Below are positions 9,804 to 61,370 of a stretch of 64,000 bases of DNA, one piece after another. A model generated the notes under the pieces. It had not been told where the DNA came from and made no database searches. It saw nothing but the letters and a program-made list of their open reading frames with translations. A program made the translations under genes and the position numbers. The stretch comes from Clitopilus passeckerianus (taxonomy: Eukaryota > Basidiomycota > Agaricomycetes > Agaricales > Entolomataceae), in contig CALYLX010000037.1 of the NCBI GenBank assembly GCA_944990035.1, positions 186,001 to 250,000 of the forward strand, written 5' to 3'. Numbering within the stretch: the first letter of the stretch is position 1; every line of letters starts with the position of its first letter.

Positions 9804-9813
9804 TATATTTCTT

Positions 9814-11635: not shown

Positions 11636-11665
11636 AGGGCTTTGATCAAAAAAAAAAAAAAAAAA

Positions 11666-17253: not shown

Positions 17254-17258
17254 AACGC

Positions 17259-28277: not shown

Positions 28278-28303
28278 TATATACTAGAATGCAACACTGA
28301 CAC

Positions 28304-29301: not shown

Positions 29302-30893
29302 CAGTGGGCAACAAAACTCTTCCAATGTTTGCTACTTTTTCAAAAATGTGTTAATAGCTGATGAAATAAATTATGCAAAATCTTGAAAATAATATATATC
29401 ATAGTTCAATCTCTTGGCTTGATGCTAACATGACCCTGAGGCTGTGCTTCCACTTTTAGCAGGTGTTTCACACAGTACAAGGTGGTGACCCATTGGAAGG
29501 GTTTTGTTGCTACTGATTTTAAAAACAGAAATACATGGATTTTAGTACTTAGTCTACTTTCCCTTGGCATCAACTACTGCCTGAATCCTTCTAGGCATTG
29601 ACTCTATTAAGTTCTGGCACACCTCAGCTGGAATCTCATTCCAAACCTTCTCTACCCTTGCCCAAAGCTCTAATACTCCATTAGTTAGAGAATTATACTT
29701 GCTAAGCTCTTTTTTGACATGAACCCAAAGATGTTCAATAGGGTTCATATCAGGAGGGTTTGCTGGCCAGATTAGAACCTTCATTTTGTGGTGTTTAAAC
29801 CATTCCTTGGCCATGTTGCTGGTGTGCTTGGGGTCATTGTCCTGCTGAAAAATCATATCCTTCACTTTTACCTTATAGTACTTTAGGCTAGCCTGAAGTT
29901 CCTCCTCCAGGATTGAAGTGTAAAGGACCTTGTCCATGGTACCTTCAATTTTGGTAGCATATCCAACCCCATCCCATCCCATACAGCCCCATATCATAAT
30001 ATTTCCTCCTCCAAATTTCCGGGTTTCTTTGACGCGTCGCTTGTTAAGCCCCTCCTTCTTCCCTGCCCACACTCTCTCATTCCCATCTGCCCCAAACCAG
30101 TTGATTTTAGTCTCATCAGACCAATAGACCTTTTTCCAATCATCTACAGTCCACTCCTTATGCCTCTCTGCAAACTCCTTCCGTGCACGAATATGCTTCC
30201 AGTCAAGTGCAGGTCATTTCACCTTTCTAAAGGACTTCCAACCAGTGTTTTTGAGGCCCCTGCGTACTGTCTGAGGTGTGACAGTTGTGTTGGTAATATC
30301 TTGAAGAACTCTAGCAGCTTGGACAGCTGTAGAAATCTTGCCCATGTGCATGTTGAGTTTTGTGTATTCAATGTTGGCAGGCGTAAGCTTAGGAGGACAG
30401 CCACCAGATGACTTGGGAAGGTGAGGACAATGCTTATCACGTATTCTGCTAATAGAAGCAAGGCCAATACCAGTCTTTTTATGAATATGAGTGGCAGTGA
30501 GGCCAGTATGAAGCAGTTCAATGACACGGGTAGTCTGAGCTTTGGTGAGAGCATGCATGATGGGTTGGGGGCAAAGCAGCACTTGGGTCAGCTGTATATA
30601 TAGTGTACTGACACTCTAGTCACATGACCTTGTTGACTACAATCAACAAACTCAAGTATCATGTGACTTATCACATGATTACTAGATTCAAAATACTTAG
30701 CAACAAAACCCTTCCAATGGGTCACCACCTTGTACTGTGTGAAACACCTGCTAAAAGTGGAAGCACAGCCTCAGGGTTATGACATTGAACTATGATATAT
30801 ATTATTTTCAAGATTTTGCATAATTTACTTTATTAGCTATTAACACATCTTTGGAAAAATAGTAAACATTGGAAGGGTTTTGTTGCCCACTGT
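29302..30893 (-). mobile_element. Tc1-A copy 2, both ends present
   Basis: 1592 bp with TA duplicates at 29300-29301 and 30894-30895. Left terminal repeat is 29302-29510; the right one (30700-30893) has lost about 15 bp. Each repeat has the motif GCAACAAAACCCTTCCAATG at its outer end and an inverted copy of it at its inner end. Confidence 0.94.
29554..30558 (-). pseudogene. Tc1-A transposase, two nonsense codons
   Basis: DD34E transposase from ATG 30558. The single frame spans the whole gene with no shift. TGA at 30214-30216 (CGA in sisters) breaks it at FRKVK*PALD, and a TAG replaces the tryptophan of the final KWTKY. The helix-turn-helix N-terminal region, WSDETKIN, QDNDPKHTS and NPIEHLW are all present; 34 residues separate the second Asp and the Glu. 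By decay this is the mildest of the complete copies. Confidence 0.9.
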
Positions 30894-30998
30894 AGTGTAC
30901 ATTCTGTGCCCTAATACAATAAGAGTTTATCACTCGTCCTTTACATAGTTAGTACTCCATTAGTCTCTACACTCAAGGTAAGTACTTTAGTAGTTGCA

Positions 30999-31166
30999 CT
31001 TCCCCGCCTGCTTGACACCCTGTGCACACTGCTGCTCCTAAAGATGCTGCAAGTGCAGCATCTGCTCCTTCCACTGCTGCCGCAGGTGGGCATGGTATAG
31101 CACTGGCCTCCCTTGCTCCTGCAGTCACCCCCACCTCCTGCAGTGCCTCCCAAGGCACCAGGACTC
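30999..31166 (+). pseudogene. LINE ORF1 fragment (Ala-rich linker)
   Basis: Short plus-strand piece encoding the APKDAASAASAPSTAAAGGHG linker region, running into the poly(T) of a minus-strand LINE at 31167. It may continue the ORF1 at 28414-29041. Confidence 0.75.
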
Positions 31167-34100: not shown

Positions 34101-34394
34101 ACAGAGGGTTCAACAAGGCGGTCGGACGCCCAGTTGTATGTTGAATCAAGAGCAGCCCAGAGTGACTCAAGAGAGTTGCATGGTTCACCATTGTGGCGAA
34201 TTGCTTTATGTCTAGAGAGCTGACACTGCTTGGCCCAGCGCATGAGATCCCATAGACGCTTGTTGGTAGTAGCGATTGTCTGAATTCTACTATCAAAGAA
34301 CTTGCGCTTGGCCACCTTAGTGGTCCTTCAGAATGCCTTGTAATTAGCGACCGCCTTGGAAGCGCGATACACTCTGACAGCCTCAGAGCACTCA
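31167..34394 (-). pseudogene. LINE 3' half: ORF2, 3' UTR and tail
   Basis: Minus-strand LINE with tail (T run 31167-31177), perfect hairpin ACGCCCCCGAAGGGGGCGT (about 31189-31207), 3' region and ORF2 up to the ECSEAVRVYRASKAV segment, where it is 5' truncated. A 519-codon frame (32258-33817) covers the RT (FDLAQFFPSLNHD, YVDDGSLIV) and linker. RNase H has an internal deletion near 32300 that removes the segment around its second acidic motif, and further shifts separate the zinc finger (about 31800-31870). Confidence 0.87.
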
Positions 34395-35257
34395 GTTGTT
34401 GCCACAGGTGCTGCCCCTTCCCAACTGCAACCAGAGCGGATCCATTTGGGCAACTGGATGCAATTCCAGTGCCGGTTTGCCCGCCCCCCTCCCCAGGCGC
34501 CTGCTACACCGCGTAGAGCGCCTAATCCGCATGCTGTGCATATGCCAAAGCCTGCTAATGTGTCTCAGCAGCAGCAGCAGCAACTACAACAGCGTCAGCG
34601 CGTGCGCCCAAGGCGTCCTACGCTTCTGTCGCTTCGCAGCTGCCTAGGAGGCCTGCAAACACCGCCTCTCGCAGTTTTGCAGAGGTTACTGTTGGCATGA
34701 CTGCGCACCAATGCGCAGAACTTGCTGAACTCGCGCGTCATCTCCCTGGACTGTCCTGGGATGAAGTAGCGCAACTCAAGGACAATTCTAAGGCCAACAA
34801 GCGCAAAGCAGCATCCTCTCCCCTCCCCTCTGCTCCCTCCCCTTCAAAGAAGAAGCAGAAGCTCAAATCCACTACGTGCAGCCCATCGCGCAGACAGTGC
34901 TTCATTTATGTGCGCAGAGGCACTGGCAGCGACACTATCCCTGCTCCTCTTCCTATCTTGCCTGGACAGGCTGTCTCCGTGCCCCCACGCACCTAGGTGC
35001 ATCAACTGCGGCAAGGTGCACACAGCACAGCAGATTTGTCCAAGTGCGCCTTCTCTCGTCACCGGTTTGATGCTGGCTGGATCCAGCGCTGGTATGATGT
35101 CAACGATGCAGTACACTTTTCTGTTAGAGCACCGCAAAGTTATGCTAACGTTCAACCACCCAGGAGGAGACCGATTCAGACGGCTCCGGGTGATCGTACT
35201 GCTCGTGTTTGAACTACTTTATGCGTCACAAACATGTATCCATGCTTCGCCTCTATT
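34395..35257 (+). pseudogene. LINE ORF1 C-terminal part and ORF2 start
   Basis: Plus-strand ORF1 beginning in the VATGAAPSQLQPERIH linker, with polyQ, the QCAELAELARHL box and KKKQKLK. A deletion near 34980 skips to the third zinc knuckle. The ORF1 stop at 35210 and the ORF2 ATG at 35220 (MRHKHVSMLRLYS) follow before sequence switches to a minus-strand LINE tail. Confidence 0.83.
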
Positions 35258-35344
35258 CTTTTTTGTGTGTGTGTGTGTCAAAGCCCTAAGGGACATGAAC
35301 AAAGTGGACGTGTCTGTCATCGTCGCCTGAGAACCAAGCACGTA

Positions 35345-36950
35345 CAGTGGGCAACAAAAGCCTTCCAATGTTTGCTACTTTTTCAAAAATGTGTTAATAG
35401 CTGATGGAATAAATTATGTAAAATCTTGAAAATAATATATATCATAGTTCAATGTCTTGGCTTGATGCTGTCATAACCCTGAGGCTGTACTTCTACTTTT
35501 AGCAGGTGTTTCACACAGTACCAGGTGGCGACCCATTGGAAGGGTTTTGTTGCTACTGATTTTAAAAACAGAAATACATTAATTCTAGTACTTAGTCCAC
35601 TTTCCCTTGGCATCAACTACTGCCTGAATCCTTCTAGGCATTGACTCTATTAAGTTCTGGCACACCTCAGCTGGAATCTCATTCCAAACCTTCTCTACCC
35701 TTGCCCAAAGCTCTAATACTCCATTAGTTAGAGAATTATACTTGCTAAGCTCTTTTTTGACATGAACCCAAAGATGTTCAATAGGGTTCATATCAGGAGG
35801 GTTTGCTGGCCAGATTAGAACCTTCATTTTGTGGTGTTTAAACCATTCCTTGGCCATGTTGCTGGTGTGCTTGGGGTCATTGTCCTGCTGAAAAATCGTA
35901 TCCTTCACTTTTACCTTATAGTACTTCAGGCTATCCTGAAGTTCCTCCTCCAGAATTGAAGTGTAAAGGACCTTGTCCATAGTACCTTCAATTCTTGTAG
36001 CATATCCAACCTATCCCACCCCGTACGGCCCCACATCATAATATTTCCTCCTCCAAATTTCCAGGTTTCTTTGACGCGTTGCTTGTTAAGCCCCTCCTCT
36101 TTTCTTGCCCACACTCTCTCATTCCCATCTGCCCCAAACCGGTTGATTTTAGTCTCATCAGACCAATAGACCTTTTTCCAATCATCTACAGTCCACTTCT
36201 TATGCCTCTCTGCAAACTCCTTCCGTGCACGAATATGCTTCCGGTCAAGTGCAGGTCGTTTCACCTTTCTAAAGGACTTTCAACCAGTGTTTTTGAGGCC
36301 CCTGCCTACTGTCTGAGGTGTGACAGTTGTGTTGGTAATATCTTGAAGGGCCCTAGCAGCTTGGACAGCTGTAGAAATCTTGCCCATGTGCATGTTGAGT
36401 TTGGTATATTCAATGTTGGCAGGCGTAAGCTTGGGAGGACGGCCACCAGATGACTTGGGAAGGTGAGAACAGTGCTTGTCATGTATTCTGCTGATAGAAG
36501 CAAGGCCAATTCCAGTCTCTTTATGAATATGAGTGGCAGAGAGGCCGGTATAAAGCAGTTCAATGACACAAGTAGTTTGAGCCTTAGTGAGAGTGCGCAT
36601 AATGGGTTGGGGGCAATGTAGCACTTGGGTCAGCTGTATATATAATGTACTGACACTCTAGTCACATGACCTTGTTGACTACAATCAACAAACTCAAGTA
36701 TCATGTGACTTATCACATGATTACTAGATTCAAAATACTTAGCAAACAAACCCTTCCAATGGGTCACCACCTTGTACTGTGCGGAACACCTGCTAAAAGT
36801 GGAAGCACAGCCTCAGGGTTATGACAGCATCAAGCCAAGACATTGAACTATGATATATATTATTTTCAAGATTTTGCATAATTTATTTCATTAGCTATTA
36901 ACACATCTTTGGAAAAGTAGCAAACATTGGAAGGGTTTTGTTGCCCACTG
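35345..36950 (-). mobile_element. Tc1-A copy 3, both ends present
   Basis: 1606 bp, TA duplicates at 35343-35344 and 36951-36952, inserted in a LINE RNase H region. It has the same length and the same two inactivating lesions as copy 5 (61371-62976), though the two sit in different target sequences. Confidence 0.95.
35585..36600 (-). pseudogene. Tc1-A transposase, nonsense plus frameshift
   Basis: ATG 36600 (MRTLTKAQTT). A TGA at 36280-36282 replaces the tryptophan in NTGWKS, and a 1-nt loss near 36015 (in GWDGVGYAT) shifts the frame. The C-terminal 131 codons with QDNDPKHTS and NPIEHLW are open. Without the lesions it would be about 338 residues. Both lesions recur in copy 5. Confidence 0.9.
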
Positions 36951-37265
36951 TAGTTTGGAGCAAATGGACAGCGAGTGTCCTTGCCCAGAGTGGAGAGACG
37001 GGTCCAAAGCCAAACGGATGGCTTTAGTTGAGTCTGAGAGCACAACTATCTTGACACAGTTGTTGCGCAGAACAGCATTGCTTATAGACAAGTCAATGGC
37101 TGCGAGTTCGCCATCATCAGAAAGGACTCTGCCCGATGCCATAGTGTATTCTTCTGGGCCAAAGTTGCCATGAAGGAGGGAGCAGGCAGCAACCGCTTGG
37201 TGCTTCCTGCTTTTGGGAACAGACACGTCAGCTGCCACCAACACAGTAGTGTCAGACAGATCTGT

Positions 37266-38370
37266 GTAGAGGCCACTTGGCTCAACTGCTAAAGTGGACC
37301 CAGAGCTGTGTGGCAGGCAGCGGCAAGGTCAAGGGTTCGATCCTCACGGGTTGCAACTTTCGCATTGCAGGTCCTGAAGTCTGCAGCTTTGTCACATGAT
37401 CATTGGTTCAACCCTGTGACATGACAAAAGCACGTGACATGAGTCCTCCCTTGGTAAAGGAGGTTTGCAGCTGGGTTACTGGCGCTCTAGGCACAGCCGC
37501 GGCATGATGGTTCTATCCGACTGTGGGAAACCTTAAGTAAGCACAGTGATCACGTGACTTTGCCCGCAAGGGACCGAAAGGATAGGGGATGGTAAGAGTG
37601 GGTATGGAGGTGAAAACAAGCCGAACGGCCTGAGTTACTTCCTAATTGGTAGTCATCTGGTTAAGTTGGTACCGGAAGGACAAATCTGTGGTCCCCAGGC
37701 CCAGGCCACCCACCCCCTAGTAACAGGGCGTTAGTCATCGCTGTGCAGGGCGTACGGATTTGTCCACCCGTAGACTGCCGAGAACAACTCCCACAGTGAG
37801 ACAACTCCTCATGGTGCCATGTGGGTAGGGCGATGGCGAGACAGAGACTGAGGACAGATTGGGGATCCGCGCCGGTCGGCAATAAGCGAACCATCTGCCT
37901 TGGAATGGGAAAGTTGTGCTGGGGGTAGCGCCCCAGATCTCAACTGGGCCGTAGCAGGATGGGGCAGCCCCCCTACCCTGGCTCGAGAGGACTAATACTC
38001 TGTCGGCTCCCTCGGAAGTAATAAGTCCGAGTTGGAGTTTAAGTTGATTCCAGAGTGTTGGTCTGCTCAGTAGATCCATGTACCATATGTGGAAGACGGC
38101 CTGAGCCCAATGTGGCAAGGCTTAGTCGACATGCCCAGGCAAGGATTCCAGACCCAATCAGGAGGCCAATGTGCCATGTCAGTCATACTCAGATGAGCCA
38201 GAGCTCAAGTGGAGTCCCTGCAGCACTGATCCGGGAAGGTCGTGAGACCGTGTAACCTGCCGAGTAGCGATACCAATATGGGAGGGCAATGTCCCGATGC
38301 CGAAGAGGCCGGACCTACTAGCAATCTCAGGACCAATGGGTCCTACCGCAAGGTGGGGCCCTAAACTTCG
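37266..38370 (+). other. 1.1-kb noncoding block with pol III-like boxes
   Basis: No LINE, LTR or transposon similarity to the rest of the window and no convincing ORF. Near its left end are TGGCTCAACTGC (37278-37289), resembling a tRNA A box, and GGTTCGATCC (37334-37343), an exact B box; the T-stem around the latter is only partly paired, so this is not a tRNA gene. The remainder contains several GC-rich self-complementary stretches. A tRNA-headed SINE-like retroposon is possible; a fragment of some other structured-RNA element cannot be excluded. Confidence 0.45.
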
Positions 38371-40566
38371 CCCCTGAACATAAGCGCAGGAAGGACGCGT
38401 CTGGCGCTGCCGTTGCACAGCCCAAGTCTAGAACTGCCTCAAGGGCTGGTTCACCTTTCCAAACAGAGTTTGTTCCTCTGTTTACTGGTCATGATGAGTC
38501 GGAGTCCTGCGGTTTGACACTGCAGGCCACTGGGAGCGCTGCAGAGGATGATTTTGAAGCGCTCACAGACTCCCTCTCGACTATCCAAGGGTGGATGGTG
38601 CAGATTGCATCATCCTTCTTCGACGAGCAGAACGCTCGAGATATCGCCAATGCCCTTATCAGCACTGTTGCACAAGCAGTGAGCTCGCACTTTCTGGACT
38701 ATCACTCTGTAGATGAAGGACATGTGCCTCAAGTCAGGCATGTCAGAGACGCCTTAAACAGCCTTCTACCCTCTCCTCTGCCCCAGCAGCGCCCCAAGCA
38801 CGCTGCTGCTTCCTCAGGCGCAGTACCAGCTGCACCTGCACATTCCTCTGCTGCTGCAGGGGGGCATGGTGTAGCACCAGCCTCCTCTGCCCCAGCAGGC
38901 GCCCCCTCCTCCTCCAGCGCTTCCCAAGGCGCCAGGACCCAGGTTACCTCTCCCCGACCCGCGGAACACACTGCCACAGGTCACAAATCTCCGGCTCCCA
39001 TGGAGGGACAGGAGTCCACAGCAACATCTCAGCAACCTGATAACCCGGTCCCTGGACCGGACTCAGGTGTTGCCACAGATGCTGCCCCTTCGCAACCGCA
39101 GCCTGAGCAGATCCATCCGAGTAACTGGATGCAATTCCAGCGCCGGTTTGCCCGCCCTGCTTCCCAAGCACCTGCTGCACCGCGCAGAGCGCCCAACCCG
39201 CATGCTGTGCGTGCACCCAAGCCTGCTAATGCGTCCCAGCAGCAGCAGCAGCAACCACAACAGCGTTAACACGCTCCCAAGGCATCCTACGCGTCTGTTG
39301 CTTCGCAGCCGCCTAGGAGGCCTGCAAACGCCGCCCCTCGCTCTTTTGCAGAGGTCACTGTTGGTATGTCTGCGCACCAATGCACAGAACTTGCTAAACT
39401 CGCGCGACATCTCCCTGGACTGTTCTGGGATAAAGTAGCGCAACTCAAGGACAATTCTAATGCCAACAAGCACAAGGCAGTGTCCTCTCCCCTCCCCTCT
39501 GCTCCCTCTCCTTTGAAGAAGAAGCAGAAGCTCAAATCCACTACGCGTGGCCCATCGCGCAGACAGTGCTTCATTTATGTGCACAGAGGCACTGGCGGCG
39601 ATGCTATCCCTGCTCCTCTTCCCATCTTGCCTGAACAGGCCGTCTCCACCCTCAACCTCTGTTTATCGAATGGGGGTTCTTGCAACAACACCATCCATGC
39701 AGAAGTCGGCAGGGGTGACACTATCATCGTCCACTTCAGTGACACACCCACCCACAGCAATCTGGGCATTATCCAACTCGCTGTGCAACGTGTCTGGTAC
39801 TCCCTCACTGAGGGTGGTCAGCCTATCGTCAACGTGAATGTAGAGGTTCCTGCATCGCGTTCTTACGCTCGCATCACTGGCATGCCCTACTTCACCTTTG
39901 GTGCGGTTGGGAGCACTCCAGTCACTCCTGACACTATGGAGGCACTCCTGCGTCAAAATGCCACTACGTTGTCGCTCCAGCTTGCTGGGAAGCCGCGTAT
40001 TCATCGTGCAAGCAGCCCGCATGACATGTGCGTTGTTTTCTTCGACTTCTGGGACACTAGGTCTGGCACCGCCTTTAAGTCTATCACCAACAAGAGGATG
40101 TCCATTGGTGGTTGCCTCTGCAACATCTCCCCTGCCAGTGTGCACGCTGGCGTCCCTCAGTGTCAGCGCTGTTAGACTTGGGGACACCCAACTGCATCTT
40201 GCAGACAGCAGTACAACTCCTGCGCGCATTGTGGCTATGGTCATGACACGCAGAACCATCGCAAGCTCTCCCACTGCTGTTGGGAGAAGCCTGATGCGAA
40301 TCCCCCCGGTGCCTGCCACTCCTGATGGCGAACCGTGCCCCCACGCACCCAGGTGCATCAACTGCGGCAAGTCGCACACAGCACAGCGGATTTGTTCAAG
40401 TGCGCCTTCTCTCGTCACCGGTTTGATGCTGGCTGGATCCAGCGCTGATATGATGTCAATGATGCGGTATGCTTTTCTGCTAGAGCACCGCAAAGTTATG
40501 CTAACGTTCAACCACCCAGGAGGAGACTGATTCAGACGGCTCTGGGTAATCGTACTGCTCACGTTT
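38371..40566 (+). pseudogene. LINE ORF1, two nonsense codons and a shift
   Basis: ORF1 lacking its first ~75 codons. It is open from 38371 to a TAA at 39267 just after the polyQ run (sister copies have CAG), open again through QCTELAKLARHLPGL, KKKQKLK and ARITGMPYFTFGAVGS, to a TAG at 40173 that replaces the Trp in the first zinc knuckle (CQRCW). A shift near 40310 precedes the third knuckle CINCGKSHTAQRIC, whose last part is altered. Confidence 0.87.
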
Positions 40567-40576
40567 AAATTGCTTT

Positions 40577-43104
40577 ATGCATCACAAATATGTATCTATG
40601 CTTCGCTTCTACTCACAGAATGTGAATAGAAATTATGATCTTGTGTCATCACTCTTGGAAGAGCGTAAGAATGATTTTGATGTTCTCCTGCTACAAGAGC
40701 CTCCCTGGAGGCTAATACGTCGCACTGTGTCCACTACCAACCCAGAAGGGGAGGCAGTGATTGGTGCTCCCACTCATCTGGACTGGCTGGTCATGTTTAG
40801 ACGTCCAGCATCCGATACTGACCGCCCACGCGTTATGATGTTTGTGCATAGGCGTCTTGCAGGCATGCGGCCTGCATTTCGCACTGACCTCGCCAACCAC
40901 AATGATGTGTTGGTCACTACACTGTATGGGAGCACAGGTGCTCAAATACACTTTGCCAATGTCTACTCCAGCCCAAGGGATGGTACTGCCATTCGCTGGT
41001 TGTGTGACAATGCCTCTCATCTCTCAAGCATGCTTTGCATGGCAGGGGACTTCAACTGCAAGTCGTCAGTCTGGGATCTGGACTATGACTCTACAAATCA
41101 TGTTGCGACTGAACTGTGTGATTTTGCGCTTGATGTGGGTTTGGAGGTTAGTGTTCTGCTAGAACGCACTCCTACTCACTTCCCGCATGCTGGTAGCCTC
41201 AGGCCTTCAGTCATTGACTTATTCTTTCTCCCTGTGGGTCACACTGCAGGGACTTCACACAGCGTGGTCACAGAGTGGAAAGGACCCTCTGACCACGCTC
41301 CTCTTACAGTCACGCTCCCTATCCAGCCTGTGCAGCTGGCTGCTGAGCGCATCACTCTGCCCAAGGGCAGTGAGCAAGAAGAAAAGTTCCTTGAGGAACT
41401 GTCCTCTTCTTTGCGAGCATTGGACACAACCACTCTCACGACAGCAGAAGCAATCGAGCACTGCACTGGCGCCATTGCGACCGCTATTAAGCAGTCTTGG
41501 GATAATAACTCAAAGACTGCCCGCATCTCCACCAAGTCAAAGTCTTAGTGGAATCCTGAGTCTCTGAGGCTGTCAGAGTGTATCACGCTTCCAGGGCAGT
41601 CGCTGATTACAAGGCGTTCCACAGGACCACGAAAGTGGCCAAGCGCAAGTTCCTTGATAGTAGGATCCAGACAATTGCTACTACCAACAAGCGTCCATGG
41701 GATCTCATGCGCTGGGCCAAGCAGCGCGAGCTCCCTACACATGAAGCAATTTGCCACAATGGCGAACCTTGCAATTCCCTAGAGTCGCTCTGGGCCGCTC
41801 TTGACTCAACATACAACTCGGCGTCTGACCGCCTTGTTGACCCCTCTGTGCTCGACAACGTGCCTCAGTCTCCTCCGCGCGAGTGGTGGGACTTTGGTGC
41901 ACATGAGCTTAGAGAAGAACTTGCACAGTGCTCCAACACTTCTGCTCTAGGTCCTGATCACCTCACATGGTATCAGCTCAAATTCATGGTTGCTGACACT
42001 GTCATTGCAACCAAATTTGTCGAGATGGCTAATGCCTGCCTTTGGGTTGGTCACTGGCCTTCTCACTTCAAAGAGTCATGGTCTGCCATTGTTCCAAAGC
42101 CTGGCAAACCGCACTATTCAACTCCCAAGATGTTCTGCCCTATTGTGTTGCTTAACACGCTGGGAAAGCTCTTTGAGAAAATGCTTGCAAACCGGATGCA
42201 GTTTGAAGCGTAGAAATTCGGCGTGTTCCACCCCAACCAGTTTGGAGGTGTGCACCAACACTCTACTGAGGATGTGGGTGTTTACCTCACTCACATTGTC
42301 AAAGCTGGTTGGGCTAGAGGGTTGAAGACAAGCGTGGTCGCCTTTGACCTTGCTCAGTTCTTCCCCTCTCTTAACCATGACATGCTGTTGCGCATGCTGC
42401 ACAGACTGGGCTTGTCCCTTCAAGGCTCAGCTGGGACATCCATCACCGTGCTCCCTTGGCGGCCACTGGCCTGCACGTGGGTGCTGGTAACAAACCCCGG
42501 ACATCCCTTGGGTATGCCTGGAAGCATGCCATTGACAGAATGCTGCATGAGTGGACATGTCTGCTGCAGCAGCCTGCTCACTCCGGCAACAATTTCCTGC
42601 GCCTTACACACAAAGGCGCCTCCCTAAGGCCTACACACCTCAAAGGCGGACCTTGGCTACGTCGTGTTGGTTCCTCCAACGCGCACAGTCTTGGGTCATA
42701 CGCCCATTGGTGAGTTCCATGCATGCTTCAACCTGGATGGAGAGACAGTGTGTGCGTGCAATTGGTGCATACTGGAAACAAGGGGACACATCCTCCACCA
42801 GTGTGTGCACTTTCAACGACGGCTTAACCAGCACTTGCGCAGGGAGCTGTCGTCCTTTTTGTTCTTCCTTGAGAACAATCCTGCCGCCTTTGCATTTCCA
42901 TCGCAACAGCCTCCACCGCTGTTTCCCAAAGCCAGGAAGACATGGTGTCGTGGCCTGCCTGACAAGGCCCCCACGCCTGCTCGTGGTGCCCCTCACGCTT
43001 CTGGAGGGCACCGCCGACTCAGACGATCTAGTTTGGGTGCCTGGTGCACACCAATCTGTTTGTAGGGAACAAGCCGAAGCGTCTGGCATGACTTCTCATG
43101 CATA
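40577..43104 (+). pseudogene. LINE ORF2, endonuclease plus C terminus
   Basis: ATG 40577 (MHHKYVSMLRFYSQNVN). The complete AP-endonuclease domain is open to a TAG at 41546 that replaces the Trp of KSWWNPEC: LLLQEPPWRL, GDFNCKSSVWD and SDHAPLTV are present. A 2-nt loss near 41567 and a TAG at 42211 (from CAG) follow. At about 42413 the RT palm is deleted, joining RLGL to the post-RNase H segment (SITVLPWRP in one frame; GNNFLRLTHKGASLRP in another). The final LVWVPGAHQ segment is recognisable to about 43104. Confidence 0.87.
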
Positions 43105-50011: not shown

Positions 50012-50189
50012 AGTGGTTTGAGAACTATGATATTGATGTTTTTATATGGCCAGCACACTCTCCTGACCATAATCTTATTGAACATCTTGGGGTTCATGTC
50101 AAGAATGAGCTGAAAAAATACCCAGAGCCACCTACTGGAATTCTTCAACTAGCTATCCACCTAATAAGGCCCAAATCTGTGCTTGCACT
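50012..50189 (+). pseudogene. Degenerate Tc1-like transposase C terminus, third family
   Basis: About 50 codons resembling the end of a Tc1 catalytic domain: NYDIDVFIWPAHSPDHNLIEHL, with the glutamate of the triad preserved. It is similar to but distinct from both Tc1-A and Tc1-B at this position. It is fused to the truncated Tc1-A copy without visible ends and stops at the solo LTR. Confidence 0.7.
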
Positions 50190-50346
50190 TGTAAAGGCAG
50201 AGCCTAACAACTTAGGTAATACTGTTTACGCTTGATGTCTTTGGTAAACCAAGACAGAGATTTGTCAGCAGCTGCAGCTGTACTGACGACCTGGTGAGTT
50301 TGACGAAGCAAGAGACTTAAAGGCAAAGTAGAGAACTAAGCAGTTA

Positions 50347-51966
50347 CAGTGACTCAAACAATTGTCTGGATGTTTCGCACTTTTTGAGTATTTGCTTAAT
50401 AACTTTTGCTATACCAAAGTTTGAATTATAGTGTTGGTACATAAAACAAAGCATTTGATCTCTGCTACAAGAATATATAAAAGCTACGTAATTCGGATCA
50501 AAGTCCGTTTAGACATAGTAGAAACAAGTCAGAGATACATCTGGACAATTATTTGACTGTGCTTCCAGAAACACAGACACAGCCCAATTGCAGTGTGCAT
50601 AGCCCTTGGCAGTGCAGCACAGCCTTAGAGGCTATGCACTACAGCCATATGGCTGTGTTTGCAATACATATAAGCAGCTGAAATGCTATCAGATTCCCAC
50701 AATTTACTATGCGGCCTATTCCATCTGCTCAGAAGAAAAACATTATTTCTCTGGCTTCTAACAATTACTCTGTCTGGTCTATTGCCTCCAAACTCAATGT
50801 AGGCAAGTCTACTGTGGCTACAGTGCTTCAAGAAATCTGTCCCAACTGCTGTAAACCTTCTTCTGGCCGCCCTTCTAAGCTCACCCCTACTGATAAACGA
50901 GCTGTTCTGGCACAATTCAACCATGGCAGATGCACTAATGCTGTGCAGGTCACCAAACACATTAACACCATCATTTCCAACACTGTCTCCCCGCAAACAG
51001 TCAGAAATGTACTCAAGAAAAATGATTTCTATGCTGTTGTGTTGAAGCCAAAGCCCTTGCTTACTTCTGCTCAAAAAAAGGCGCGCGTAGCATGGCGCCA
51101 CAAGCACAAGGAATGCACTGTAGAGGACTGGAAGAGGGTGGTATGGTCAGATGAGACCAAGATCAATAGAATTGGGTCAGATGGAAGGAAATGGACATGG
51201 AAACAGAAGGGCCAGGGCCTTATTCCTAGGGAGATAAAAAAAACGGTTAAACACGGAGGAGGAAGCATCATGGTATGGGGGTGTATGGGGTGGAATGGAG
51301 TGGGGCAACTTGCAGAGGTTGAGGGCATTATAGACCGCTTCTAATATCAGGACATTTTGGACCAGCAGCTACTGGTCAGCATGGAGAATTTGAACATTCC
51401 CGAGGACGAAAAAACTTTCTAGCAGGACAACAACCCCAAGCACACCTCTAATGTGGTCCGGGTGTGGATGGAAGACAATGATATTGATCTTCTAGACTGG
51501 CCAGCACAGTCTCCTGACCTCAACCCTATAGAACACCTCTGGGACCATATCAAAAGGAAGCTTAATGAATATCCGACTCACGCTAAGGGGGTTTTTGAAG
51601 TTTGGGAGAGAGTTGCAGAGGTATGGGAGAATATACCACCAGAGGTGTGTCAGAACTTAATAGAAAGTATGCCCAGAAGGATAGAAGCAGTCCTTAAGGC
51701 AAAGGGAGGCAATACCAAGTACTAATGGCTGAATTTTATATATCTAATGTACATAGTCAAATAATTGTCCGGATGTATCTCTGACTTGTTTCTACTATAT
51801 CTCAACGGGCTTTGATCCGAATTACGTAACTTTTATATATTCTTGTAGCAGAGATCAAATGCTTTGTTTTATGTACCAACACTATAATTCAAACTTTAGT
51901 ATAGCAAAAGTTATTAAGCAAATACTCAAAAAGTGCGAAACATCCAGACAATTGTTTGAGTCACTG
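50347..51966 (+). mobile_element. Tc1-like transposon, family Tc1-B, both ends present
   Basis: 1620 bp, TA duplicates at 50345-50346 and 51967-51968; the LTR sequence reads through when it is removed. Terminal repeats are about 212 bp (50347-50558, 51755-51966). As in Tc1-A, a ~20-nt motif at the outer end (ACTCAAACAATTGTCTGGAT) recurs inverted at the inner end of each repeat, although the motif sequence is unrelated. Confidence 0.95.
50709..51725 (+). pseudogene. Tc1-B transposase, two nonsense codons
   Basis: DD34E transposase of 338 codons plus stop, from ATG 50709 (MRPIPSAQKKN), in one frame throughout. The N-terminal helix-turn-helix region (WSIASKLNVGKSTVATVLQE) is followed by GRPSKLT, first Asp in WSDETKIN, second Asp in QDNNPKHTS and Glu in NPIEHLW; 34 residues separate the last two. 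TAA at 51342 and TAG at 51420 (sister families have CAG, Gln) interrupt it just before the second Asp. It shares the PPEVCQNLIESMPRRI C terminus with Tc1-A. Confidence 0.93.
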
Positions 51967-52278
51967 TAGGTAGATTGCCTAGGTCAAGCTGAGGAGCCTT
52001 GACCAAATAGTACAGGTTTATATACCTATCTAGGTAGTTTTAAATATAGCACATGCACAGCATGCTGAGTAAGTAATGAGTCATGCGCAGCATAATAAGT
52101 AAGTAATCGAGTCAGAAAAAGTCAGATAAGGTATAAGTCTCTCATGATTGTGAAAGATGCGGAGCAAGCATAGGAAAAAAATGAGTAATGCGCAGTAATG
52201 CACAGCATAGGTAGGTAAGCATGCATAGGTAAGCAGGCCAGGGTGTGTAAGAAAAAACACATAAGCAAAATCATAACA

Positions 52279-52640: not shown

Positions 52641-53412
52641 TTTTTTTGGTCATAGCCCTATGCCCTCAAAAGGGGTGTCTGACAATTTATACAGTAAGCA
52701 ACAAAAGTGTTCCAATGTTTGCTACTTTTCTAAAGATGCTTTAATAGCTCAGGAAATAAAATGCTTATATCATCCATCAAACTTTATTGCACAGCCTCAT
52801 GCTTATGTCAGCCTCAAGCCATGATCTTAAACTATATTGGGTAATATTTTGATGATTTTATCAATTTCATTTCCTGAGCTATTAAAGCATCTTTAGAAAA
52901 GTAGCAAACATTGGAACACTTTTGTTGCTTACTGTATTCTGGCAGCCAATTGCGGTCTGGTCGCAAGTACCTAAATACATGCATTGTATACTAATGTAAG
53001 TAAGACCGTGTTTGTTGAGTGAAGTATACTGAATACAAGGTATGCAAAAGAGCAAGCTAGGATGGCCCCCAAAAATAAATCTATCAATGAGTATAGTAGC
53101 GCGCAACACCCTGCAGAAGCAGCAAGAACCCTGGAGGCTAGGCTCGCTGCTATATGATAGATGGAGCACTGACGTCTATGCATGGTAAGCCATGCCGGAT
53201 GCTTCAGCTTGCTCTCTGTAAACAAATTGGTATGCACCAGGCATCCAGACAAGGTCATCCAGGCGCAGCGGTGCAGTGGAGCCTGTTAGAGGCATTTGTT
53301 GGCGGTGGCCTCCCGCAGCGGGGAGAGCATTGCAGGGACATGTAGAGGCCTTATCAGGCAGGCCACGTTGCTGTGCCTTCCTGGCTTTGGGGAACGCTAG
53401 TAGAGGCTATTG
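52641..53412 (-). mobile_element. LINE 3' end, hit by a MITE and by Gypsy-2
   Basis: Minus-strand 3' end of the LINE derivative that continues at 60676-61370 and 62977-63448: T-run 52641-52647, decayed hairpin, then LINE 3' sequence on both sides of the MITE (52692-52934) up to the Gypsy-2 insertion. The coding part is the ORF2 C terminus, with no usable frame. Confidence 0.88.
52692..52934. mobile_element. MITE related to Tc1-A ends (243 bp)
   Basis: Inverted repeats of roughly 70 bp starting CAGTAAGCAACAAAAGTGTT, flanked by TA (52690-52691, 52935-52936). The repeats resemble the Tc1-A termini (CAGTGGGCAACAAAA..CCAATGTTTGCTACTTTT) but differ at fixed positions, implying a related, unseen autonomous family. 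It sits in a LINE tail: the flanks rejoin as GACAATTTATATTC, as in other LINE ends. Confidence 0.92.
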
Positions 53413-53897
53413 TGTTAGGATTTTGCTTACATGTTTCTCCTTACATACCCCGGCCCGCTTACCTATGCACGATTACTCACATATGCTGCGCATCACTGCG
53501 CATTTTTCATCTTTTTCCATGCTTACTCCGCATCTCTCACGATCGTGAGAGACTTATACCTTATCTGACTCTTTCTTACTCACATCGAGTCATACTGACT
53601 CATGTACTTACTCATCATGCTGCGCATGACTCATTACTTACTCAGCATGCTGTGCATGCGCTATATTTAGAACTACTAGATAGGTATATAAACCTGTACC
53701 ATTTGGTCAAGGCTCCTCAGCTTGACCTAGGCAATCTACCTAACTGCTTAGTTCTCTACTTCGCTTTTAAGTCTCTTGCTTCGTCAATCTCACCAGGTCG
53801 TCAGTACAGCCGCAGCTGCTGACAAATCTCTGTCTTTGTTTATCAAAGACATCGAGCGTAAACAGTATTACCTAAGTTGTTAGGCTCTGCCTTAACA
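53413..53897 (+). repeat. Gypsy-2 5' LTR
   Basis: 485 bp, starts TGTTAGG and ends GCCTTAACA. It contains the 18-bp perfect palindrome CTCTCACGATCGTGAGAG (53534-53551), several GCATGC-type short palindromes (53620-53670), a TATA box and the self-primer sequence. Confidence 0.95.
53685..53728 (+). promoter_or_regulatory. Gypsy-2 TATA box and predicted transcript 5' end
   Basis: TATATAAA at 53685-53692 lies 33 nt upstream of CAGCTTGACCT (53718-53728), the reverse complement of the primer site after the LTR. This is the same spacing as in Gypsy-1. The start site is inferred from this geometry. Confidence 0.72.
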
Positions 53898-53899
53898 AA

Positions 53900-53910
53900 A
53901 GGTCAAGCTG
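53900..53910 (+). other. Gypsy-2 primer-binding site (self-priming type)
   Basis: AGGTCAAGCTG, 2 nt after the LTR end, pairs over all 11 nt with CAGCTTGACCT in the LTR. It differs from the Gypsy-1 site at four positions, each matched by a compensating change in its own LTR. Confidence 0.78.
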
Positions 53911-53934: not shown

Positions 53935-54495
53935 CGCAGGCCCACCCCACGACAACACAGCAGAAGCACGCAACAGGCCGATTGCCGTTGCGGCTACCAC
54001 TCAGTCACCACGGTCGTACACAGGGCAGACCACCCGCCACGAAATACCACTCTAGTAGAAGGAACCAACAACGTCTACAAGTTCACCAACGGAAGCTACT
54101 GCGATTTTAATCACAACAATAACCGCTGGTGCTACGCCTCTCTCTCCCTTGGCAAATTCACATTCACCACCGTTGCCGTTGAAAACAGACACTTCCACGC
54201 TCTAGACTTCCCTACCCCTGAACGACCTCATAAGACCCCTGCTATTGTCCGAGCTCAACGAGAACACGACATTGAAGTAGACGAGGAGGAACAGCGACGC
54301 TTCGCACCATTACCCACAGCAATATCCAGGAACCCATCACTAGTCCCGTCTACCAGCGCTTCTGTCTTGCCCGAAGAGGAAGAAGAAGAACACCAAGTAC
54401 AACAACAGCTAGAGGAGAGCCCCACAGCTGAGCCAGAGGAGTGCCCCAGTGCAGAAACAATTGAACCAGAGACCGACTTCGATTTCGACTACGAA
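53935..54495 (+). other. Open in-phase segment upstream of Gypsy-2 gag ATG
   Basis: 187 codons, open and in phase with gag, and protein-like (NVYKFTNGSYCDFN, ALDFPTPERPHK, an acidic EEEEEE run), yet with no ATG in any frame. If translated, it needs a non-AUG start: the ACG at 54010 in ACC ACG G has the best context. Alternatively the original ATG has mutated, or the segment is only leader. Confidence 0.55.
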
Positions 54496-55425
54496 ATGTC
54501 ACAAGACAACAACAACAAGAAGGACATTGGAGCCAAACCCCAAACGTTCTCCGGAGACCGATCCAAGACCAGAAAGTTCATTCAGGAACTTGAAGACTAC
54601 CTCATCCTAAACAACCTCAACCAACTCGAAGATGACAAGAAGATTCGCATCGCCCTATCCTTCCTCAAAGAAGGAACTGCAGCAGCATGGGGATTAGAAT
54701 TTCACGATAAATATTCAGCAGCTGAAAGGAAAGCCACCTACGCTGAATTTATCAGCCAATTCAAAGAAGCCTTTTCCCCTACCGACGACAAAGCTGCCGC
54801 ACTTCTCCAACTCAAAGCCTTACGACAGGATGGAACAGCTGACGAATTTGTCACCGTCTTCAAGAATATTCTTGCACGAACTGATCTCAGCGGTGACACT
54901 GCAAAGATCGAGATCTTCATGGAAGGACTTACCCCCAAACTCCGAGAGAAAATTCTCTTTTCCAATTCCCCTCCTACCACATTCGACGATTGGGTCAAGA
55001 AAGCCGTCCAGTTTGACAACAACTGGCGACGTGCCAAGACAATCATGGGACATACCTGTATCATCAAGACATCTGATATGGTCAAAGGTGCTTACAAAAC
55101 ACCTACTGGAGCCCGAGACCCAATGGCTATGGATGTTGATCGTTTCACCACTGATCCACCCAAACGCCGCCTCACCCAGGAGGAAAGAGAACATCACAAG
55201 AAGAACAACTTGTGCTACTATTGCTCCAAGAAAGGTCACACGATCCAACAATGTCTTCAAAGGAAGAATTTTGGAAGAACCTACCCTAGCAACAACGACA
55301 GCCGATTCCACAAGAAACCTGAGAAGGGAGCCGAGTTGATCAAATATGTCAGAGCAGTCCTAGCTGACATGCCCCAAGAAGAAGCCGCTGAATTCTACAC
55401 CGAAGCAGAGGCTGAGGGTTTTTAA
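54496..55425 (+). CDS. gag: Gypsy-2 Gag
   Basis: 309 residues from the first ATG of the predicted mRNA (MSQDNNNKKD); a non-AUG start upstream would lengthen it. The retrotransposon gag domain begins with TFSGDRSKTRKFIQELEDYL and includes TAAAWGLEFHDKY and GTADEFVTVFKNILARTDL. A CCHC zinc knuckle, CYYCSKKGHTIQQC, lies near residues 240-253. The protein forms the particle shell and binds RNA. The stop TAA at 55423 directly follows the slippery GGGTTTT. The frame is intact. Confidence 0.92.
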   Translation: MSQDNNNKKDIGAKPQTFSGDRSKTRKFIQELEDYLILNNLNQLEDDKKIRIALSFLKEGTAAAWGLEFHDKYSAAERKATYAEFISQFKEAFSPTDDKAAALLQLKALRQDGTADEFVTVFKNILARTDLSGDTAKIEIFMEGLTPKLREKILFSNSPPTTFDDWVKKAVQFDNNWRRAKTIMGHTCIIKTSDMVKGAYKTPTGARDPMAMDVDRFTTDPPKRRLTQEEREHHKKNNLCYYCSKKGHTIQQCLQRKNFGRTYPSNNDSRFHKKPEKGAELIKYVRAVLADMPQEEAAEFYTEAEAEGF

Positions 55426-55461: not shown

Positions 55462-58400
55462 ACCCGATTGATATTTCCAGTGTACTTGTAGCTACTGATT
55501 TTTATGCTGAATCTATGCGTATCCCGATCTCTCTACAAGACCCTCTAGATGGAAATACAACAATCGCCGGCACAAAAGCTCTCATTGACTCTGGAGCGCA
55601 AGGGTCATTTATCGACTCCGTCTTTGCCAAGACACATCACCTCCCACTACTCCCACTCCGACAACCGATTACAGCACGAAACGTTGATGGCACCCTGAAC
55701 AAACAAGGAACTATTACCCACTTTACCTGGGTTATTGCCAAGATAGGGACAGCCATCATCAAGGAAAGATGTTTTGTCACTGGACTCGGGAAAGACCACC
55801 TGATTTTTGGATTACCCTGGCTAAAACGGGTAGATCCAATCATATCGTGGAGCGACGGCACACTCGAAATCGACGAATCACGCATTACCCAATGACTGTC
55901 GCAAACATTGATGCGAGCAGTAGACATCAAGCGGATGAGAGCCATCCGAGAACAACTACTAGAGGAAAACACGCCACCTACCCCAGCACCTGATTGTTCC
56001 GAAGAGAATCCCGGAAAATCAGAAGGACTTAGCGACTATTTCCGAATAGTCGAAGACGGAGAAGAGATCAATGAAGACTTTCTCATCGCATACTGCCAGA
56101 ACGAACCGGCAGTCGGAATATTCACCAAGGAGGAACCCCCACTTACGCAGGAACACACAAAGGATTACCTTGTGTACAGGCCAATCAGGCCAACTACCAC
56201 GATACGACAGACGGTGATAACACACCATCCAGCAACCAGACATCACACACAGCAGGTGTGGATACGTGCGAAAACATCAATTTCGCAAGCTCTGGAGCAT
56301 AAACGAGAAGATAAGGAGCCAAAGAAATCCCTTGACAAAATCATCCCCGACTATCTTCAAGACTACAGAAAAGTCTTTGAGAAAGCAGCATCTGAACGAT
56401 TCCCACCAAGCCGACCCTGGGATCATGCCATAGATCTGAAGACAGATTTCGTGCCAAAAGACTGCAAGGTCTATCCGCTCAGCCCCTTAGAGCAAGAAAA
56501 ACTCGACGAGTTTCTCAAGGAAAATCTAGCCAAAGGATACATCCGGGAATCCAACTCCCCACAAGCATCTCCGTTTTTCTTCATTGCAAAGAAAGACTCG
56601 GAAGCCCTAAGACCATGTCAGGACTACCGACGACTCAACGAAGGAACAATACCTAACGCTTACCCCTTACCGCTGGCTAGCGAACTCATTGATAAACTCA
56701 AAGGAGCAACTGTCTTCACCAAACTCGACATTCGATGGGGATATCACAACATCCGCATCAAAGATGGTGACCAATAGAAAGCAGCGTTCAAGACCAACCG
56801 AGGGTTATTTGAACCAATGGTGATGTTCTTTGGACTAATGAACTCACCCGGTACCTTCCAAGCAATGATGAACCACCTTTTCCGAGACATGATAGACGAA
56901 GGATGGGTCATCATCTACATGGACGACATCCTCATCTTCTCCAACGATCCAGAAAAACACCGAGAACGCACACGCAGAGTCTTACAAAGACTACAAAACA
57001 ACGATCTCTACCTCAAAGCAGAGAAATGCCAATTTGACACCACAAGAGTGGAGTACCTCGGGTTCATCATTGAACCAAACAAGATCTCCATGGACCCTGT
57101 CAAACTTGCAGGGATGCGCGACTGGCCTACGCCAACTACAGTAAAGGAAGTCCGATCATTCCTAGGATTCGGAAACTTTTACCGCAGGTTCATCGGAAAA
57201 TATGCGGAAATTGCCAAACCGCTGAACAAACTCACCAAGAAAGACAAGAAGTGGGAATGGACCAATGAATGTCACAAAGCTTTCACTACCCTGAAAGACA
57301 AATTCCTGGAAGCGCCTGTGTTGCTGATGCCTGACCCCACGAAGCCATTTGTGGTGGAAAGCGACGCCTCAAAACATGCAACAGGAGCAGTCCTACAACA
57401 ACGTGACGCCAACGGATCATGGCACCCATGTGGTTTCATATCTAAATCGTTCTCGGAAACAGAATGGAACTATGAAATCTACGACCGAGAACTTCTAGGC
57501 ATTATCCGCGCATTAGAAACCTGGCGACACTACTTCCATGGATCCCAACATTCAGTCGTGATTCTATCCGATCACAAAAACCTCACATACTTCCGAGAAG
57601 CCCGGAAGTTGAACGGACGACAAGCAAGATGGAATCTGATGCTATCCCAGTTTAACATCAAACTTGTACACACCCCTGGTGCAAAGATGATACAATCCGA
57701 CGCACTATCTCGACGACCAGACCACATCCCAGGTGAAGATACCGACAACGAAGACATCATTCTCCTCCCCGACAAGCTCTTCCTTCGCTCAATTGACATT
57801 GAACTAAAGGACGAAATTGTACACAAGATGGTCAATGACAAACTGATTGTTGACGCCATTCGCACCGCCAAAGAAGACGGACCTCCACCAATCCGATCAA
57901 ACCTGGAAGACTGGAAATTTGACGATGGCATCTTGTACTACAAAGACAAGTGCGTGGTACCAGATGACGAAGACCTCCGAAGGAAGATAGTCCAACGTTA
58001 TCACGATCTACCCAGCGCAGGACACCCTGGACAATTTGGGACACTGGAGAAAGTCCGGAAGGACTACTGGTGGCCAGGGATGTCAGTGTTCATCAAGAAC
58101 TTTGTGCAGGGCTGTGCAATGTGCCAACAAATGAAGATCAATCGCCACCCCACTGCTCCACCATTAATGCCCATCAAATCCGAAACCACTAGGCCATTTT
58201 TGCTAGTGACGTACGATTTTCACACGGATCTCCCAGAGAGTAATGGTTTCGATAGCATTATGGCCGTGGTCGACCATGGAGCTACGAAGGGGGCAATTTT
58301 CATCCCTTGCACAAAGAAAATCGACGCCACAGGAACTGCAAATGCCTACATTGACAACGTCTACCGTCGCTTTGGACTCCCCGACAAAGGAATTTCAGAC

Positions 58401-59249
58401 AGAGGACCTCAATTCGCCTCTAAAGTTTTCCAAGAAATGGGACGACTCCTTGGAATCAAGCTCAACATGAGTACCGCCTACCACCCACAAACCGATGGTG
58501 CGACAGAAAGGATCAATCAGGAGATTGATGCCTATCTCCGCATCTTCTGTGCACAGAACCCCGAATCCTGGTCCAAATGGATTACCACTCTAGAATTCTC
58601 CTACAACAGCCGAACACACTCTGTCACCAAACGAACCCCATTCTACCTAATGATGGGATACGAACCACCTGCACTCCCATCAGTTGCTCCCACTAGCAAA
58701 ATTCCCGCAGTTGACAAACGGATCAAGGAACTTCTGCTAGCACGCGATGAAGCAAATGCTGCACATGCACTTGCTGTGCAATGCATGGCAGAGAAGATCA
58801 CACGACATTTCACCCCATTCAAAGTCGGAGAAAAGGTGTGGTTAGAAGCCACAAATCTCAATCAAGGAAACATCTCCAAGAAACTAGCACCCAAACGAGA
58901 AGGACCCTTCAAGATACTTGAGGTAAAAGGACACCTGACCTATAAACTCGACCTGCCAAGACGATGGAAGATCCACCCGGTGATTCACGCATCACTTCTC
59001 ACCCGTTACATCTTCACCAAAGCGCATGGACCCAGCTTCTCTAAACCGCCACCTGACGAAATCGACGGAATAGAAGAATACGAAATAGAAGCAATTGTGG
59101 CCCATCAGAAACAGGGCAAAGGGCGACACAGATACCTCGTAAAATGGAAGGGATGGCCATCAGTGGACAACGAATGGATGCCCGAGTCGGAACTGCGGAA
59201 CGCCAAGGAAATACTCACCGAGTATAAAAAGAGGAAGAAACTCACCTGA
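55422..59249 (+). pseudogene. pol: Gypsy-2 Pol, two in-frame stops
   Basis: About 1275 codons in the -1 frame relative to gag. Domains: protease ALIDSGAQGSF (about 55580); RT with QDYRRLN, KLDIRWGYHN and YMDD (56916-56927); RNase H with VESDASKHATGA and LSDHKNLTYF; integrase with HHCC finger (YHDLPSAGHPG..CAMCQQM) and catalytic core (TYDFHTDLP, ISDRGPQFA, HPQTDGATERINQE); and a canonical chromodomain near the C terminus (EYEIEAIVAHQK..YLVKWKGWPSVDNEWMPE). TGA at 55893-55895 separates protease from RT, and TAG at 56775-56777 replaces the Trp of the WKAAF motif. Otherwise the frame is intact to 59249. The second stop kills RT. Confidence 0.93.
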
Positions 59250-60190: not shown

Positions 60191-60675
60191 TGTTATGATT
60201 TTGCTTACATGTTTCTCCTTACATACCCCGGCCCGCTTACCTATGCACGATTACTCACATATGCTGCGCATCACTGCGCATTTTTCATCTTTTTCCATGC
60301 TTACTCCGCATCTCTCACGATCGTGAGAGACTTATACCTTATCTGACTCTTTCTTACTCACATCGAGTCATACTGACTCATGTACTTACTCATCATGCTG
60401 CGCATGACTCATTACTTACTCAGCATGCTGTGCATGCGCTATATTTAGAACTACTAGATAGGTATATAAACCTGTACCATTTGGTCAAGGCTCCTCAGCT
60501 TGACCTAGGCAATCTACCTAACTGCTTAGTTCTCTACTTCGCTTTTAAGTCTCTTGCTTCGTCAATCTCACCAGGTCGTCAGTACAGCCGCAGCTGCTGA
60601 CAAATCTCTGTCTTTGTTTATCAAAGACATCGAGCGTAAACAGTCTTACCTAAGTTGTTAGGCTCTGCCTTAACA
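60191..60675 (+). repeat. Gypsy-2 3' LTR
   Basis: 485 bp, starts TGTTATG and ends GCCTTAACA; palindrome at 60312-60329. It is followed by ATTGT (60676-60680) and LINE sequence continuous with that left of 53413. Confidence 0.95.
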
Positions 60676-61370
60676 ATTGTAATAGAAACGCAAAAGCAGC
60701 AAGGTTGTTCTTAAGGAAGAACAAGAAAGACAATAGCTTCCAGCGCAGGCGCTGGTTGGGCTGTCGTTGGAAAAGTGCACACTAATGAAGGATGTGTCTC
60801 TTTGTTTCCAGTATGCGCGAGTCACATGCACATGCCATCTCCCCATCTAGGTTGAAGTGTGCATGGAATTTGCCAATGGGTCTATGACCCAGGACTGCAC
60901 GTGTGAGGCGTGTGGTGTGCGCATTGGCAGAACCAACACAATGTAGCCAAGGCCCACCTTTGAGGTGTGTAGGCCTTAGAAAAGCATTTTTGTGTGTAAG
61001 GCACAAGAAGTTGTTGCCAGAGTAAGAAGGCTGCTGCAGCAGACAAGTCATGCAGCATTCTGTCAACAGTGCATTTCTGGGCATATCCCAATCACTGTCT
61101 CCCCTTCCAGGTTGGTAGTGGACATAGTGCAATGTATGAGCCTCTAGAGAGGTTTTTGTAGCAGAAGCTGCACTGAGGTAGTCTGTAATATAAACAGTTT
61201 TGGCCTGCACAACTGTTGCAACCAGGGTGTCTGCAATGAACCTTGCTTGAAGCTTATCGACACCACTAAGAGGACAATAGTCCATCCACCCTTGCATAGT
61301 AACAAGAGCATTGGTAAAGGCCTTGACATCATCTCTGACGGCTGCCTCTGTAGCCAGTAAAGACAGGGTA
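60676..61370 (-). pseudogene. LINE ORF2 C terminus joined to ORF1 N terminus
   Basis: Continuation of the minus-strand LINE from 53412. Positions 60676 to about 61090 encode the ORF2 C-terminal region (SGNNFLCLTHKNAFLRPTHLKGGPWL and the zinc finger CACDSRILETKRHILH). About 80 bp of unassigned filler follow, and from about 61173 to 61370 there is ORF1 N-terminal sequence (MQGWMDYCPLSGVDKLQARFIAD, VYITDYLS). The middle of ORF1 and most of ORF2 are gone, leaving a short LINE derivative. Confidence 0.82.

Follow-up and report, generated by a model that had tools for sequence, protein, structure and literature searches.

Self-priming of reverse transcription, as in the Tf1/sushi group, has been known since 1995; the founders of that group are Tf1 and Tf2 of Schizosaccharomyces pombe. 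According to the passages cited here, the first 11 nucleotides of the Tf1 RNA fold onto a site, are freed by RNase H and prime minus-strand DNA (PMC7175516). In the cited sections of other papers self-priming was inferred for Tj1 of S. japonicus (PMC4600332) and for other fission-yeast elements with a pretzel leader (PMC10085805), and it was predicted for most Tcn1-like plant elements (PMC6317226). For one spikemoss Tcn1 element, the passage cited describes neither tRNA priming nor self-priming as evident (PMC2864245).

Here we analysed a stretch of 64,000 nucleotides (C37:186001-250000, "the window") of the 64.8 Mb assembly of Clitopilus passeckerianus, in which we find two elements, Gypsy-1 and Gypsy-2 (Table 1). 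Judged by their letters, both are Ty3/Gypsy chromovirus LTR retrotransposons that are very probably self-primed in the same way as Tf1. Domain scans of Gypsy-2, Gypsy-1 and a further family, B, found the Ty3/Gypsy order of pol domains with a chromodomain at the integrase. The Chromo score was 51.7 bits in Gypsy-2, 38.2 bits in family B and 24.4 bits in Gypsy-1, the last just below the cut-off of 25.1. The SH3_Tf2-1 domain scored 55.5 in Gypsy-2 (cut-off 30); as a pointer to the Tf1/sushi clade such Pfam matches are only suggestive. The two LTRs of Gypsy-2, the ends of which were trimmed by eye to TG...CA, are 99.6% identical (486 nt BLAST alignment). Its pol has one TAG stop, inside the reverse transcriptase (RT), so this copy may need help to move.

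Table 1. Positions of the parts of Gypsy-1 and Gypsy-2 in the window, and of Gypsy-2 copies elsewhere in the assembly that have a shortened spacer.
Element	Feature	Position	Strand	Remarks
Gypsy-1	Target-site duplication	17254-17258 and 24066-24070		AACGC
Gypsy-1	5' LTR	17259-17539	+	
Gypsy-1	Self-primer candidate	17434-17444	+	AGACTTGAACT; 33 nt past TATA start 17401
Gypsy-1	Putative primer-binding site	17542-17552	+	AGTTCAAGTCT; AA spacer after LTR end 17539
Gypsy-1	gag + pol	18144-23548	+	Two open frames, 464 and 1333 aa
Gypsy-1	3' LTR	23785-24065	+	11-mer at 23960-23970
Gypsy-2	Target-site duplication, left	53409-53412	+	ATTG, 4 bp; read from the flanks
Gypsy-2	5' LTR	53413-53897	+	TGTTA...TAACA; self-BLAST match to 60191-60676
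Gypsy-2	TATA box	53685-53691	+	TATATAA; read from sequence, putative function
Gypsy-2	Self-primer candidate	53718-53728	+	CAGCTTGACCT; TATA start + 33; predicted first 11 nt of transcript
Gypsy-2	Predicted stem, 5' arm	53729-53751	+	Adjoins primer; AGGCA, CCTAAC, GCTTAG; RNA fold
Gypsy-2	Predicted stem, 3' arm	53872-53892	+	Just upstream of LTR end; CTAAGT, GTTAGG, TGCCT; RNA fold
Gypsy-2	Spacer, LTR to primer-binding site	53898-53899	+	AA, 2 nt
Gypsy-2	Putative primer-binding site	53900-53910	+	AGGTCAAGCTG; exact reverse complement of CAGCTTGACCT
Gypsy-2	gag	54367-55425	+	Ty3_capsid and Retrotrans_gag domains
Gypsy-2	pol, open-frame pieces	55908-59249	+	RT, RNase H, integrase, SH3_Tf2-1, chromodomain; approximate start
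Gypsy-2	3' LTR	60191-60675	+	Own copy of 11-mer CAGCTTGACCT at 60496-60506
Gypsy-2	Target-site duplication, right	60676-60679		ATTG, 4 bp; read from the flanks
Gypsy-2 copy	1-nt spacer	C66:1043933		
Gypsy-2 copy	1-nt spacer	C67:91976		
Gypsy-2 copy	1-nt spacer	C119:117196		
Gypsy-2 copy	1-nt spacer	C34:755943		

Other repeats surround the two elements. An older LTR related to Gypsy-2 lies on the minus strand at 51967-52278 and 50189-50346, in pieces that are 84% and 95% identical to it. Inserted DNA of about 1.6 kb separates them; the TATA box and the CAGCTTGACCT (51981-51991) of this LTR are intact. A part of the inserted DNA, 50791-51600, matches contig C66 (locus L041) at 96%. Mostly broken repeats of a non-LTR retrotransposon occupy 4486-16509, 24915-41861 and places elsewhere in the window. 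Two tested frames of the window are of this kind, with endonuclease and RT domains, and a 749-aa frame at 7554-9803 within these stretches gave no Pfam match.

The original prediction stated that Gypsy-2 has the same layout as Gypsy-1, i.e. an 11-mer 33 nt from the start of TATA and its exact complement 2 nt past the 5' LTR, and that the sites of the two elements differ at four positions, with each change compensated in its own LTR. Both statements are borne out by the sequence: positions 1, 2, 3 and 9 distinguish the two primers, and at all four each site matches its own primer. Cross-pairing, i.e. the primer of one element with the site of the other, leaves four mismatches. The identical spacing that was also claimed holds for the distances from TATA to primer and from LTR to site, but not for the distance from primer to site, which is 108 nt in Gypsy-1 and 182 nt in Gypsy-2.

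Chance does produce short inverted repeats, and the complementarity between the 11-mer after TATA and the site after the LTR might be one of them. The window was scanned on both strands for a TATA, an 11-mer 20-44 nt on and a complement of it within 500 nt. Only the places of Gypsy-1 and Gypsy-2 matched, both on the plus strand and both exactly at 5' LTR ends, and the other strand had no such layout. In 60 windows simulated with a first-order Markov model the mean was 0.17 layouts per window when no condition was set on the LTR end, and not one simulated layout had a CA two nt before the site, as against the two observed. Moreover, family B has the layout with new letters, and family D, though diverged, has it with the letters unchanged. 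Chance is in practice refuted and we give it next to no credence, as the original prediction had claimed. Its description of the two matches as independent was overstated, given that the pol proteins of Gypsy-1 and Gypsy-2 are homologous (48% amino acid identity over the RT-integrase region). Genome-wide, the Gypsy-2 11-mer occurs 839 times on both strands, versus 83 times for a reversed control, as expected for a sequence that is carried by a repeat family.

Chromovirus families in the assembly were collected with an integrase-domain search (PF17921), in which 150 of 254 candidates were scored, and with three protein searches, for which the figures were 70 of 526, 86 of 400 and 91 of 404. The scored candidates comprised Gypsy-1 (family A), C, B, B2, G, D and Gypsy-2 (family E); further divergent families may exist, because only part of the candidates was scored. 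At the amino acid level C is 82% identical to A, B2 (contig C30) is 72% identical to B over a partial match and G (contig C126) is 49% identical to B. A family was regarded as readable if its 5' LTR and the site after it could be seen together. The comparison across families, which had been proposed along with the original prediction, gave an exact 11-nt complement in all four readable families (Gypsy-1, Gypsy-2, D and B), with three different 11-mers among them. No family with an intact pol and without the complement was seen among the candidates scored.

In family B (locus L039), ATCCTTGATAT and ATATCAAGGAT are fully paired, with the primer at TATA + 33, the site 308 nt away and a 2-nt spacer, TA. 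The end of its LTR was fixed by four other LTR copies, which share the end CCTAACA and are followed by differing DNA; three of the four keep the 11-mer after the TATA box. Family D (L045 and L047) has the pair CAGCTTGACCT/AGGTCAAGCTG at TATA + 34, with distances of 147 and 148 nt. Four of the first nine 5' stretches contain the pair of the expected element (L039, L045, L047 and L046, a Gypsy-2 copy). L042 has a Gypsy-2-family pair where a relative of Gypsy-1 was sought, and no pair was seen in L040, L041, L043 and L044. The pair is also present in two loci from an earlier search, L006 (family D) and L002 (Gypsy-2). A scan of 15 loci found it in seven (L039, L042, L045, L046, L047, L002 and L006) and not in the other eight (L040, L041, L043, L044, L001, L004, L005 and L008), the last four of which had entered the scan through single 11-mer matches.

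In family C the 3' LTR contains AGACTTGAACT, and AGTTCAAGTCT follows a piece of LTR that is displaced and inverted. The family agrees with the Gypsy-1 pair on displaced pieces but has no intact pair. The LTRs of Gypsy-1 and C are identical at 103 of 145 positions over the stretch that starts 40 nt upstream of the primer and extends to the end of the LTR. When the genome was searched with the LTR and site of Gypsy-1, nine matches came up, and only the copy in the window covers LTR, spacer and site at 100%. Relatives of Gypsy-1 on C66 and C110 have no 5' LTR where one is expected. For B2 and G the stretches fetched contained neither a recognisable 5' LTR nor a site, and these families do not count as negatives. 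A degenerate pattern of LTR end and site, TAACANNANHTCAAG, had 20 matches in the genome, compared with 29 for its reversed control. Two of the 20 (Gypsy-1 and B) have an exact partner in the 700 nt upstream, a mutated copy of the Gypsy-2 family had one mismatch, and the remaining 17, the displaced site of family C included, had 2 to 4. This search gave no further family, because only four matches (Gypsy-1, B, C and the mutated Gypsy-2-family copy) were tied to elements. An NCBIfam search returned only transposase and group II RT matches, all below the cut-off.

Some other loci came to light. At L050 (C66:640950-641450) a 3' LTR related to Gypsy-1 is followed by ACATCAAGTGTC, which resembles a worn site; it may be due to chance or be left over from a tandem arrangement. 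C126:626661-628061 (L082) holds an open integrase frame of 468 aa that carries the domains H2C2, rve and SH3_Tf2-1. Upstream of it, at 617000-623000, there is no match to the gag and pol of Gypsy-1 or to the gag and N-terminal pol of Gypsy-2, and the frame is a fragment of an element or possibly an integrase adopted by the host. C153:576581 is a fragment of a G-like integrase (64%).

If the elements are self-primed, transcription would start at the first base of the 11-mer, and the distance of 33 or 34 nt from the start of TATA is compatible with an RNA 5' end at this base. The first 11 nt at the 5' end would fold back onto the site after the LTR, the RNase H of the element would cut after nucleotide 11, and the freed 11-nt RNA would prime minus-strand DNA through U5 and R, after which strand transfers and integration would proceed as in Tf1. 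We infer RNA ends, cleavage and priming from the pairing of the letters and from its conservation.

The same pair could instead be a conserved RNA structure that serves packaging, translation or dimer formation, with a tRNA or another RNA as the primer. The leaders do have strong predicted folds, and an RNA structure close to the site might have more than one function. In addition, Skipper (PMC5006619) and the spikemoss Tcn1 element (PMC2864245) are described, in the passages cited, as having neither a tRNA match nor an LTR complement, so priming is not uniform among chromoviruses. However, the putative sites start with AG (Gypsy-1, Gypsy-2 and D) or AT (B), not with the TGG that would pair with the 3' CCA end of a tRNA, and they lie 2 nt past the LTR, where a primer must sit. 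Also, Watson-Crick pairing extends over exactly 11 nt, the length of the Tf1 primer, in three of the four families (Gypsy-1, Gypsy-2 and D; 12 nt in B). We consider this alternative very improbable and prefer self-priming.

The predicted folds of the leader RNAs differ between the families. In the minimum-energy folds of Gypsy-2 and D all 11 positions of primer and site are paired (mean probability 0.995 and 0.991), whereas for Gypsy-1 and B the leader is predicted without this duplex at minimum energy: none of the 11 pairs is formed, and the mean pairing probability is 0.40 and 0.10, respectively. Gypsy-2 and D also have an extra U5 stem, in which the sequence after the primer is predicted to pair with the sequence just before the LTR end; its letters differ between the two families, and its energy was reached by 2 of 500 shuffles in each. 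This stem is the pre-site duplex; it is supported in Gypsy-1 (3 of 500 shuffles) as in Gypsy-2 and D, and unsupported in B, where 9.6% of the shuffles reach it. The post-site duplex is strong only in B (3 of 500) and unsupported in Gypsy-1, Gypsy-2 and D, where 7%, 30% and 82% of the shuffles reach it. In other words, the three-duplex "pretzel" leader of Tf1 appears to be only partly matched by these models.

The primer of family B differs from that of Gypsy-1 at positions 2, 3, 9 and 10 and from that of Gypsy-2 at positions 1, 2, 3, 9 and 10. Every difference among the three is matched in the family's own site, and positions 4-8 (CTTGA) and 11 (T) are common to all three primer types. The types follow the groups A/C, D/E and B, therefore at least two changes of type are required by parsimony, reckoned without a tree; the three 11-mers are not independent origins. 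Gypsy-2 and one copy of D (L047) were aligned over a stretch that begins 40 nt upstream of the primer and ends 30 nt past the site. They are identical at 11 of 11 positions in both primer and site, and at 104 of 206 in the rest of the leader. This is the clearest sign of constraint in the sequences.

Copies of Gypsy-2 were collected with a pattern anchored at TATATAA and just past the site, which matched 131 places. For the 100 of these that are listed, counts by eye gave 99 copies with an undamaged primer 11-mer and 100 with an undamaged site; worn copies are under-represented here because both anchors required an exact match. Covariation within Gypsy-2 is uninformative because the copies are nearly identical. 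One-sided changes were found at two places, each of them in one insertion only: a C to T change in the primer at C80:492225, and a G to A change in the site at C66:713741, which is outside the anchored set. A spacer of 1 nt instead of 2 nt between LTR and site occurs in the D copy L045 and in 4 of the 100 listed Gypsy-2 copies (Table 1); this may be due to slippage when DNA synthesis starts, to a variant that the copies share or to a later deletion.

Selection on base pairing, which the original prediction saw in these matches, is favoured by the exact pairing that recurs across families, but covariation alone is no proof of it: the families are homologous, and covariation need not take two mutations, because self-priming can copy the site from the primer. 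In the retroviral scheme, plus-strand strong-stop DNA copies the primer. Applied to the present elements, this would mean that a change in the LTR 11-mer spreads unaided to the site, i.e. that self-priming is right and the covariation is templated, not selected. This is compatible with the preferred explanation, and we regard it as a serious possibility that stops just short of being probable. The one-sided changes are each confined to one insertion, as expected of mutation after insertion, and Atwood-Moore et al. (2006) reportedly found, to go by the title, that the Tf1 self primer is not removed, which we count in its favour. On the other hand, no intermediate with a new LTR 11-mer and an old site was seen in several copies, although the copies of the Gypsy-2 family are too much alike to reveal one, and selection may act as well. 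The present data cannot separate templated copying of the site from selection.

A fuller version of the templated course, which we put forward only tentatively and with some doubt, is that each cycle rewrites the primer-binding site from the primer, so that a single change in an LTR spreads to both sites. The outer positions 1-3, 9 and 10 would then drift freely, the core CTTGA (4-8) would be held by something else, e.g. by RT/RNase H, and the three primer types would be products of drift.

Sites have reportedly been compared across elements by Levin (1995), Lin and Levin (1997) and Butler (2001). In the literature searched, we found no comparison of primers and sites across families within one genome. 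The four readable families of this genome join the elements with sequence evidence of self-priming. Their three matched primer types, side by side, form a natural covariation set that could tell selection on pairing from templated copying of the site.

Among pol proteins of solved structure, that of Ty3 of Saccharomyces cerevisiae is the best sequence match (7q5b, 4ol8). Ty3 is primed by a tRNA, whereas the sites described here lack TGG. Skipper of Dictyostelium, according to the passages cited, resembles the present elements in its chromodomain and in a site without TGG, and differs from them in having a polypyrimidine stretch and a left LTR without a complementary region (PMC5006619). Tcn1 of Cryptococcus neoformans and the Tcn1-like elements of moss and club-moss are chromoviruses that the cited passages predict to be self-priming, as we do here (PMC7175516, PMC6317226). 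In Tj1 of S. japonicus and in Tosmo1-3 and Tcry1, which belong to other fission yeasts, the site, as here, complements the predicted RNA 5' end, and the sequence led to the proposal of self-priming (PMC4600332, PMC10085805). Their hosts and sequences are different and, in the sections cited, transposition of Tj1 was demonstrated, whereas the present elements are known as sequences.

The letters of the Tf1 11-mer differ from those of the 11-mers described here. Not all duplexes of the Tf1 pretzel are seen in the present elements, which are known from sequence alone. The likeness to Tf1, as far as the cited passages describe it, lies in the exact match between the first 11 nt of the RNA, the 5' end of which is predicted in our case, and the site past the 5' LTR, to which they are complementary, and also in the CA at the LTR end, the pol with a chromodomain and, in part, the predicted adjacent duplexes of the leader (PMC7175516, PMC10085805). 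We conclude that the elements are most likely new members of the established Tf1 type of self-priming, of which they change nothing basic.
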